Below the pieces are notes generated by a model, which worked only from the letters and a program-made list of their open reading frames with translations, did no database searches and was not told where the DNA came from. Shown in pieces: positions 1,776-16,065 of a DNA stretch of 45,772 bases. Made by a program: the position numbers and the translations under genes. Positions within the stretch are counted from its first letter, which is position 1. Each line of letters opens with the position of its first letter. The DNA lies in assembly GCA_905182615.1 (NCBI GenBank), contig CAJJCG010000010.1:1-45772 (forward strand), given 5' to 3'. Source of the stretch: Alphaproteobacteria bacterium UBA2964 (GTDB lineage Bacteria; Pseudomonadota; Alphaproteobacteria; MPNO01; UBA2964).

Positions 1776-2651
1776 ATGGCCACTAATCTTCCAGCACTGA
1801 CCGGACTAGATCCCAGCACTAATCTTTCACGCTATCTTTCAGGAATTCGTAAATTCCCAATGCTTGAACCGCAGGAAGAATTTATGTACGCCAAAAACTG
1901 GGCTGAGCGGGAAGATACCGAATCTGCCCATAAGCTCGTCACCAGCCACCTCCGATTGGTCGCGAAGATCGCGATGGGTTATCGCGGCTATGGCCTTCCT
2001 TTGGGAGAATTGATCTCCGAAGGGAACGTTGGCTTAATGCAAGCGGTAAAGCGCTTTGACGCGGATAGAGGCTTTCGCCTGTCGACATATGCGAGGTGGT
2101 GGATTAAAGCATCTATCCAGGAATATATCCTGCACACGTGGTCGCTGGTCAAAATTGGCACGACTGCAGCCCAGAAAAAACTCTTCTTTAACCTGCGCAA
2201 ACTGAAAGGTCAGTTGCAGGCGATCGATGAAGGCGACCTCTCACCGGAGAACGTCCAAAAGATTTCTGAACGATTAAACGTTTCGGAGACTGAAGTCGTC
2301 AATATGAACCGACGTCTCGCTGGACCAGACAATTCCCTCAACGCCCCACTGAGGGCGGAGGGAGATGGTGAATGGCAGGATTGGCTGGTTGATGACTCTG
2401 CCAATCAGGAAGAGGTCCTTGGAGACCAGGAGGAACTCGCCGGTCGACGCAAACTACTCGCGAATGCCCTCACAGGCCTGAACGACCGGGAACGTCATAT
2501 CTTTGTCGAACGGCGCCTTACTGAAGGCCCCAAGACCCTTGAGGATCTCAGCGAAGAATATAACATTTCGCGGGAGCGTGTGCGGCAGATCGAAGTCCGA
2601 GCATTTGAAAAAGTCCAGAAGGCTATCAAGTCAGCAGCGTTAGCGGCCTAG
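1776..2651 (+). CDS. rpoH: RNA polymerase sigma-32 factor RpoH (first copy)
   Basis: This heat-shock sigma factor directs core RNA polymerase to chaperone and protease promoters. It has 291 residues, normal for the family. Region 2 spans about residues 50-125 (GNVGLMQAVKRFD, RLSTYARWWIKASIQEYI). The RpoH box, diagnostic for sigma-32, is QKKLFFNLR at 133-141. Region 4 ends with the helix-turn-helix ISRERVRQIEVRAFEKVQ. It follows rluD by 117 bp, and a sigma-32-like promoter sits in that gap, suggesting autoregulation. Its last 12 bp overlap the convergent kinase-like ORF. A second RpoH-type factor is encoded at 15184-16065. Confidence 0.95.
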   Translation: MATNLPALTGLDPSTNLSRYLSGIRKFPMLEPQEEFMYAKNWAEREDTESAHKLVTSHLRLVAKIAMGYRGYGLPLGELISEGNVGLMQAVKRFDADRGFRLSTYARWWIKASIQEYILHTWSLVKIGTTAAQKKLFFNLRKLKGQLQAIDEGDLSPENVQKISERLNVSETEVVNMNRRLAGPDNSLNAPLRAEGDGEWQDWLVDDSANQEEVLGDQEELAGRRKLLANALTGLNDRERHIFVERRLTEGPKTLEDLSEEYNISRERVRQIEVRAFEKVQKAIKSAALAA

Positions 2652-7492: not shown

Positions 7493-7616
7493 CTTTCCAC
7501 CCTATTTTCGACCAGATCATGAAGCGTCCGCTCCACCGGAGCAAGCCTGAGAGGCTTGGCCTGACACGACATATAAGTTAACTCATGCTGGGGAAATAAT
7601 TCTGGAACATAGCGAC

Positions 7617-8252
7617 ATGGCAAACTGCCCAATTGATGGCTGGATAGAGCACGCAAAACACGTGGCCGAGTCCAGTCCGCTATTAAATATTTCAGTAAAA
7701 GCCAATCGGCTTGAAAAACCTTTGGCCGCCATTGTAACAGCGGCTGACTTTCCAATCGATCCACATCATCTCACCGGTGCAGAACCAGGGTCGTTTTATA
7801 CGATTCGCAATACGGCTGGGCTGGTTCCTCCTGGCGCCGGGGATGGGGTAGATTTTTCAGTCGGCGCTAGTTTGGAGTTCGCTGTACAGGTACTGGGCGT
7901 ACAGCACGTCATTGTCATGGTCAGCCCCAATTGCGGGCTCCTGAACTGCCTCCTCGACGAGGATGCTGATGGAATTGCTTCGATCGTTGATGGCCAGTAT
8001 CTGCCCAACTGGGCCCAGCTGACAGCGTCCGCCATTAACCGCGTTGGCAGCGCTAATATCCCCGCAAAACAAAGGATAAGTATCTGTAGTCAGGAACTCT
8101 CCCGAATTTCATTCGAAAACCTGATGACATACCCCTGGATACTCGACCGCGTTTTTAGCGGGTCACTTGCCTTGCATGGCTGGTATTATGACGAAGACAA
8201 CGGGGTCTTTTCGTGGTTTGACCCCGCGGCCGACGAATTTGTTAGCGGCTAA
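7617..8252 (+). CDS. Beta-carbonic-anhydrase-like protein lacking zinc ligands
   Basis: This 211-residue protein has the beta-carbonic anhydrase backbone: EPGSFYTIRNTAGLVPP corresponds to the PGDLFVVRN segment, and SVGASLEFAVQVLGVQHVIVM to the helix-strand before the second metal motif. The catalytic residues are mostly missing. The CxDxR motif reads A42-A-D44-F-P46, so the zinc cysteine and the dyad arginine are lost. The HxxC motif reads S103-P-N-C106, so the zinc histidine is lost and only the last cysteine remains. Hydration of CO2 is therefore unlikely; a binding, regulatory or structural role is inferred. It is divergent from the Rieske oxygenase (124-bp gap) and overlaps the serA stop by 4 bp. 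The reading frame is intact. Confidence 0.75.
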   Translation: MANCPIDGWIEHAKHVAESSPLLNISVKANRLEKPLAAIVTAADFPIDPHHLTGAEPGSFYTIRNTAGLVPPGAGDGVDFSVGASLEFAVQVLGVQHVIVMVSPNCGLLNCLLDEDADGIASIVDGQYLPNWAQLTASAINRVGSANIPAKQRISICSQELSRISFENLMTYPWILDRVFSGSLALHGWYYDEDNGVFSWFDPAADEFVSG

Positions 8253-14422: not shown

Positions 14423-15034
14423 CTAGTCTGTTTGATTTTTAGAAGCCCGATCTACAACCCCAAAGGGAAGGTAGACGGCAAGTTGAACCGCCTGCTTAAG
14501 CCGACGGTCCAGAAAGGACATCGTTTTCGTCATATCAGGGCTATCGTCGCGCATCCAAACGCCCAAGGCCCCGAGGTAAATCGCAGCGAGGCCCTTAGTA
14601 CGAATTCGTCCAGCTATTCCAGAAGAGTTGATACCTGCAGATTCGAGGGTCCACGCCATGGAATCCAGAAAGCTCGGAACAAGGCACAGAGTTCTTACCG
14701 GATCGAAAGGCATATCTCTCAGGATTGACGTAATCGCTGCTCTATTTGCTTCCAAAGAATCAAACCGCCGTAATATCACATCGAGTACCCGGTCATGGGG
14801 CGACTCATCACTGGCCGATGGGTCCGTCCCCGCAACGACTGTTGTGGTCGTCTGATCCACGATCGCCGCCACGATTGCCGTCTTAGATGGAAATTGGCCG
14901 TGCAACTGACTGAGAGAAAGACCGGCAGCGTCCGCTATTGTTGCCAGCGAAATATCCTGCCAACGGGCATCTGCCGCACATGCCAGAGCAGCATTGATAA
15001 TTTTGCCACGGATGTTGGTCGGCCGTTTTGCCAT
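14423..15034 (-). CDS. TetR-family regulator with COQ9-like C-terminal half
   Basis: This 203-residue protein has an N-terminal TetR-type helix-turn-helix (residues 8-55: IINAALACAADARWQDISL, then IADAAGLSLSQLHGQFPSK). The C-terminal part (RIRTKGLAAIYLGALGVWM, then DDSPDMTKTMSFLDRRL) resembles the COQ9 family, itself a TetR-fold lipid-binding protein of ubiquinone synthesis. It may be a transcriptional repressor, or a COQ9-like protein that kept its DNA-binding domain. It is divergent from the second rpoH gene, with an inverted repeat in the 149-bp gap. The ligand is unknown. Confidence 0.82.
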   Translation of the reverse strand: MAKRPTNIRGKIINAALACAADARWQDISLATIADAAGLSLSQLHGQFPSKTAIVAAIVDQTTTTVVAGTDPSASDESPHDRVLDVILRRFDSLEANRAAITSILRDMPFDPVRTLCLVPSFLDSMAWTLESAGINSSGIAGRIRTKGLAAIYLGALGVWMRDDSPDMTKTMSFLDRRLKQAVQLAVYLPFGVVDRASKNQTD

Positions 15035-15183: not shown

Positions 15184-16065
15184 ATGCCACGTGCCACCCT
15201 TCAAAATTTAATGCAATTAATCCTGCGCCAACCACGATTGAGCCGGTCGCGCGAGCAGGAATTGTTGAAAAAATTAAAAGACGGCGACAACAGCGCGGCA
15301 CACGAATTAGTCGCAAGCCACCTTCGTTTCGTTCTACATATTGCCCGGCGGTATAAAAGCCACGGCCACCCGCTTACCGATCTTGTTCAAGAAGGTACCG
15401 TCGGATTGATGGAGGCCCTGAAACGATTCAACCCCGAACAAGGCACGAGACTCTCTACCTATGCCATGTGGTGGATCCGTGCAGCTATTCAGGATTACGT
15501 TGTCCGGTCTCGGTCACTGGTAAAAATCGGCACTACAGCAGCCCAAAAATCTCTCTTTTTCAATATTAGACGACGGATGGCTGAACGCCCCTGGGAAGAC
15601 TCTTTGCCAGAAGAATTAGCGCGAAGCCTGGCGGCCCGATTTAACACCTCTGTAGCAGACGTCGTAAAGTTCGGCCGACGCATTAGAGGAACCGATCAAT
15701 CTCTGGATGTCCCCGCGGCGCGTGAGACCTTGGAAACACTCGTCGATCAGGTGATAGATGAAAGACCGACACCTGAAGATACCGTTATTAAAGAAAAAGA
15801 TGGGCGTCTTTGGCGCGATCGCCTAGTTAAAGCCCTTTCAACATTGCCAGCACGTGAATCATTAATTATCAGGCGCCGGTTCTTGGCAGAACGAGTCCCA
15901 AGCCGCGCAGATCTGGGTGCAGAACTTGGCCTGTCGAAAGAACGTGTGCGCCAGCTCGAATTAAGAGCCTTGGCCAAGTTAAAGGGTTTGCTCCAGCCCC
16001 TTCGCGACCACGCAGAAGCTGCCAGCGGCAATCCCTTCTCGGGCAACCCAACGCGCACCGCATAG
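15184..16065 (+). CDS. RpoH-family sigma factor (second copy, RpoH2-like)
   Basis: This is a second sigma-32-type factor of 293 residues. It carries region 2 (GTVGLMEALKRFN, RLSTYAMWWIRAAIQDYV), the RpoH box QKSLFFNIR at 121-129, and region 4 with LGLSKERVRQLELRALAKL. It diverges widely from the copy at 1776-2651 and lacks that copy's first 15 or so residues. In Rhodobacter and Rhizobium, second RpoH copies serve singlet-oxygen or other stress responses; that role here is inference. It is divergently transcribed from a TetR/COQ9-like gene, and no sigma-32-type promoter was seen upstream. It ends 14 bp before the convergent proC stop. Confidence 0.9.
   Translation: MPRATLQNLMQLILRQPRLSRSREQELLKKLKDGDNSAAHELVASHLRFVLHIARRYKSHGHPLTDLVQEGTVGLMEALKRFNPEQGTRLSTYAMWWIRAAIQDYVVRSRSLVKIGTTAAQKSLFFNIRRRMAERPWEDSLPEELARSLAARFNTSVADVVKFGRRIRGTDQSLDVPAARETLETLVDQVIDERPTPEDTVIKEKDGRLWRDRLVKALSTLPARESLIIRRRFLAERVPSRADLGAELGLSKERVRQLELRALAKLKGLLQPLRDHAEAASGNPFSGNPTRTA

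Follow-up and report, generated by a model that had tools for sequence, protein, structure and literature searches.

Pseudoenzymes are well known among the animal alpha-class carbonic anhydrases (CAs). The alpha-class CA-related proteins (CARPs) VIII, X, and XI are free-standing and conserved, have lost their zinc ligands, and act otherwise than as CAs (PMC2873310, PMC13253706). For the beta class, the published pseudoenzyme case that we found is a fused domain, the C-terminal domain of CsoSCA, a beta-CA-derived duplicate of the catalytic domain without the zinc-binding residues (PMC10614612). No description of a free-standing zinc-less bacterial beta-CA was found in the open-access literature, which is no proof of absence.

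Analysis of a 45,772-nucleotide stretch of DNA from Alphaproteobacteria bacterium UBA2964 (the window) revealed a gene of the beta-CA type, designated psCA (Table 1). The open reading frame is complete from ATG through stop; a reverse-strand reading of the same interval was ruled out by several stops. The protein matched the Pfam family Pro_CA (PF00484) with 77.2 bits (cut-off, 25.7; E value, 2e-21) over profile positions 3 to 154 of 156, and its nearest solved relatives in a phmmer search were pea CA (1ekj; 3e-18) and cyanobacterial CcaA (5swc; 2e-16). An AlphaFold2 model of the monomer was generated from an 18-sequence alignment (mean pLDDT, 81; pTM, 0.82). The model matched CcaA 5swc with a Z score of 21.6 over 182 residues at 2.8 A and pea CA with a Z score of 20.2, and carbonyl sulfide hydrolase (3vqj) was among the structure matches. 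These results securely place psCA in the beta-carbonic anhydrase fold family and agree with the intact frame and well-kept fold claimed in the original prediction. The protein consists of a single domain, without the fused live domain of the three-domain CsoSCA architecture, and its ancestry lies in the beta-CA group to which the plant, cyanobacterial, and proteobacterial enzymes belong.

Table 1. Positions in the window of psCA, its altered residues, and the upstream repeat
Feature	Position	Strand	Basis or remark
psCA, zinc-less beta-carbonic-anhydrase-fold protein, 211 aa	7617..8252	+	ORF, Pfam PF00484, fold, orthologues in 13/13 family genomes
Residues 42-46, A-A-D-F-P replacing C-x-D-x-R, without the zinc Cys and the dyad Arg but with Asp44	7740..7754	+	57-sequence alignment
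Residues 103-106, S-P-N-C replacing H-x-x-C; zinc His lost, Cys106 kept	7923..7934	+	57-sequence alignment
Tyr61, replacing Phe of working CAs (pea Phe179 position)	7797..7799	+	Y in 13/13 psCA, F in 36/36 canonical sequences
Leu108, adjoining the HxxC motif, replacing Gly	7938..7940	+	L/I/F in 13 psCA, G in 36/36 canonical sequences
Six-residue insertion relative to closest working CAs, residues 120-125	7974..7991	+	Alignment A1; 94% of canonical rows have a gap at column 121
Imperfect inverted repeat CAAGCCTGAGAGGCTTG in the divergent promoter region (GCAAGCCTGAGAGGCTTGG, 7541 to 7559)	7542..7558	+	Candidate operator

To compare ligand states, 13 psCA orthologues and 44 other CAs were aligned. 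Columns 42, 44, 46, 103, and 106 of psCA correspond to the positions of C-D-R and H-C in working CAs, so the changes in psCA are C42 to A, R46 to P, and H103 to S, while D44 and C106 remain. A functional beta-CA (EC 4.2.1.1) has Cys-His-Cys as zinc ligands and an Asp-Arg dyad; psCA has one of the three ligands (A42, S103, C106) and the aspartate of the dyad beside P46. All five residues are present in 44 of the 44 other CAs. Cys42 and Arg46 are absent from every one of the 13 psCA orthologues, the nine orthologues from the window's genus all lack His103, which is kept in G001, G002, G003, and G012, Cys106 is lost in G002 only, and Asp44 is invariant. The pattern is common to orthologues in 12 further genomes and is therefore not due to chance; sequencing error was ruled out by the same finding. 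The residues given in the original prediction, A42-A-D44-F-P46 and S103-P-N-C106, read exactly so in the translation, and its statement that two zinc ligands and the dyad arginine are gone is true of psCA, with the refinement that the Cys42 and Arg46 losses are family-wide and the histidine loss is genus specific. The homologue search that it suggested for A42, P46, and S103 did yield a conserved clade, which lacks Cys42 and Arg46 throughout. Parsimony on the tree suggests that the loss was stepwise, with Cys42 and Arg46 probably lost first and His103 later; the later losses would be those of H103 in the window's genus only and of C106 in one species.

Searches at the protein level revealed that each of the 13 genomes of the window's family, which consists of marine alphaproteobacteria, has one intact psCA orthologue, with no internal stops and with 36 to 86% identity to the query among the other family members. 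In the tree, a branch with support of 100/100 separates the orthologues from all other sequences. With monophyly, ligand loss shared by all 13 members, and purifying selection, the orthologues qualify as a conserved pseudoenzyme clade. psCA was found in none of 14 genomes of the same order outside the family, nor beyond the family in samples of 385 class genomes and 398 phylum genomes. Matches outside the family in the class and phylum samples reached at most about 145 bits, versus at least 252 bits within it, and those whose motifs were read had canonical ligands. A viral origin or spread of psCA was also considered and rejected, as no relatives were confirmed in IMG/VR and no PHROG match was obtained.

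Pairwise NG86 analysis gave dN/dS values of 0.08 to 0.21 for psCA, with bootstrap intervals within 0.04 to 0.38 (eight usable pairs), and YN00 values agreed (0.09 to 0.22). The working beta-CA paralogue of the window's genus gave similar values (0.07 to 0.15); psCA evolves faster than serA (0.03 to 0.06) and, by a smaller margin, than hisZ and the oxygenase beta subunit gene. psCA has thus been maintained by purifying selection, at a single locus; these ratios represent constraint on the protein without pointing to any one function. Long branches in some members (L013 and L012) and the stepwise loss of catalytic residues might be taken as signs of a decaying pseudogene or a relaxed leftover. 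This explanation is extremely improbable, as the 13 genomes contain no stops in the gene, dN/dS is never near 1, and clade-specific residues are invariant. The decay that the original prediction had named as its alternative, and for which it had proposed a dN/dS check, fails because the ligand loss marks a conserved clade with low dN/dS. Decay is refuted for the genus and could hold only for a single species such as G002.

Comparison of the flanking regions revealed a fixed locus, with psCA positioned between hisZ and serA-serC. The family gene order is rluD-rpoH-purA-hisZ-(oxygenase beta, alpha)-psCA-serA-serC-ompR-envZ-tetR-rpoH-proC, compared as far as the stretches reach (G012 has no hisZ in the stretch read, and G003 ends before serA). 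This kept order across the family indicates that psCA was inherited vertically. Two rpoH-like sigma factor genes, about 41% identical, lie in the flanks (window positions 1776 to 2651 and 15184 to 16065), and both are conserved in the family. The C-terminal part of the TetR-type regulator (window positions 14423 to 15034) matches COQ9 (PF08511). In G010, the matches to oxygenase alpha and to envZ are each split in two (L085 7212-8437 and 12962-14273), which may reflect assembly errors or real frameshifts.

The neighboring Rieske oxygenase has the iron motifs CxH...CxxH and DxxHx4H and resembles benzoate and 3-phenylpropionate dioxygenases, with scores below the cut-offs. It is the divergent neighbor of psCA in 10 of the 13 genomes, and a 124-bp promoter region is shared between the two starts. 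The inverted repeat in this region has its only perfect match in the genome there; it is partly conserved in G010, G009, G008, G011, and G006 and was not seen in G005, G007, and G004. It is possibly an operator that psCA shares with the oxygenase. The divergent arrangement, the shared promoter region, and the conservation of the repeat in several species would fit the proposal of the original prediction that the oxygenase is the functional partner of psCA. However, three genomes keep psCA without the oxygenase at the locus. Two of these, G001 and G002, have only relatives of 37% identity elsewhere. In G004, a deletion of about 1.7 kb left an oxygenase alpha stub of 15 codons (L081 9658-9702) that runs straight into sequence lying beyond the beta subunit in the sister genome G007, and psCA is intact. 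Nonsynonymous:synonymous counts on the psCA branch are 7:9 in G004 versus 8:10 in G007, so no relaxation is visible after oxygenase loss, although the numbers are small. Moreover, oxygenase relatives of 58 to 60% identity occur in the order without psCA, and in six other genomes of the order, relatives are positioned at unrelated loci, with the hisZ-serA neighbors not nearby and psCA not found. Retention of psCA after oxygenase loss and the unrelated loci of the relatives make an obligatory partnership unlikely, and it is largely refuted; we give very little credence to a functional partnership.

A second beta-CA with full ligands is encoded in most family genomes, so the ancestral activity is covered elsewhere; no alpha-CA was found in the family genomes. 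The window's genome (G000) is 73% complete, and the missing second CA there therefore means little. Regulation of paralogues is a frequent role of pseudoenzymes, and psCA might accordingly associate, as a catalytically dead subunit, with the cell's genuine beta-CA and regulate it. This is improbable, as the working CA of the genus is phylogenetically remote (about 25% identity; branch length, 2.8), and G004 (96% complete, 8% contaminated) has psCA with no other beta-CA and no alpha-CA found.

Comparison of the pocket in the 13 psCA orthologues and 36 canonical sequences revealed four fixed switches in the psCA clade, C42 to A, F61 to Y, G108 to L, and L166 to F. Gln33 (its column corresponds to pea Gln151, counted from the motif), Gly102, Ser45, and Arg46, which show little or no variation in working enzymes, are not kept. 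The insertion is clade specific relative to the nearest enzymes (alignment A1). D44, P72, A84, L86, E87, H97, W132, N168, L169, P173, and the HGW motif are invariant in both groups; Cys106 is common to canonical CAs and 12 of 13 psCA orthologues, and Cys111 is new in the clade (10/13). Pocket residues that are small or polar in working CAs have given way to bulkier hydrophobic residues, which, judged by residue size rather than by coordinates, suggests a filled pocket. With Asp44 invariant and Cys106 nearly so, psCA might have acquired a new metal site or might catalyze a different reaction. The kept fold could thus support a metal-independent or differently metallated activity via Asp44, Tyr61, and Cys106/Cys111. 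Asp44 and Tyr61 are invariant in 13 divergent sequences, Cys111 was gained, and relatives with the beta-CA fold have switched reactions before, as in carbonyl sulfide hydrolase (3vqj). Nevertheless, we regard such an activity as unlikely, as Cys106 is lost in G002, Cys111 is absent from three members, and the large hydrophobic changes G108L and S45F suggest a pocket that was filled rather than reshaped. The known reaction-switched relatives, moreover, retain their zinc.

We consider it likely that psCA is a beta-CA pseudoenzyme, inherited vertically, whose pocket is closed and free of metal and which serves as a non-catalytic binding/regulatory or scaffold protein. Judging from the residues at the site, psCA would bind no catalytic zinc and hydrate no CO2. 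The absence of the zinc-holding parts from an intact, retained protein points to a job that is probably other than the CA reaction. psCA probably folds as the usual beta-CA dimer (the dimer is expected from the family), with the former active site closed and mostly hydrophobic, and it would work by binding either a protein partner or a small ligand, in a role analogous to that of the animal CARPs. The partner would not need to be the neighboring oxygenase. The retained non-enzymatic role put forward in the original prediction thus stands insofar as psCA is intact, selected, and probably a non-CA protein, and its oxygenase partnership does not. More tentatively, psCA may represent a universal, family-defining, free-standing non-zinc beta-CA whose new role is that of a ligand sensor, a scaffold, or a metal-free enzyme and whose stepwise ligand loss can be read across living species.

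A zinc-less beta-CA clade with His-keeping intermediates would permit direct tests of the order in which the active site was lost and of how a new role was gained. As its Pfam score is well above the cut-off, psCA will probably receive a carbonic anhydrase annotation, and it represents a practical warning for annotation by Pfam score. psCA shares its fold, length, and core residues with the pea, CcaA, and proteobacterial beta-CAs (PF00484), and the ENLMTYPW and LHGW segments with the nearest proteobacterial enzymes. It differs from them in the loss of Cys42 and Arg46 in all members, in the loss of His103 in the genus, and in several changed pocket positions. The defective CAs of Brucella, with deletions and frameshifts in some strains, are distinct from psCA. 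In carboxysomal CsoSCA, the dead and live domains are parts of one polypeptide, whereas psCA is free-standing and has its own gene, near which no carboxysome genes were noticed. The alpha-class CARPs resemble psCA in ligand loss, but they have the unrelated alpha fold and occur in animals, whereas psCA has the beta fold and occurs in bacteria.
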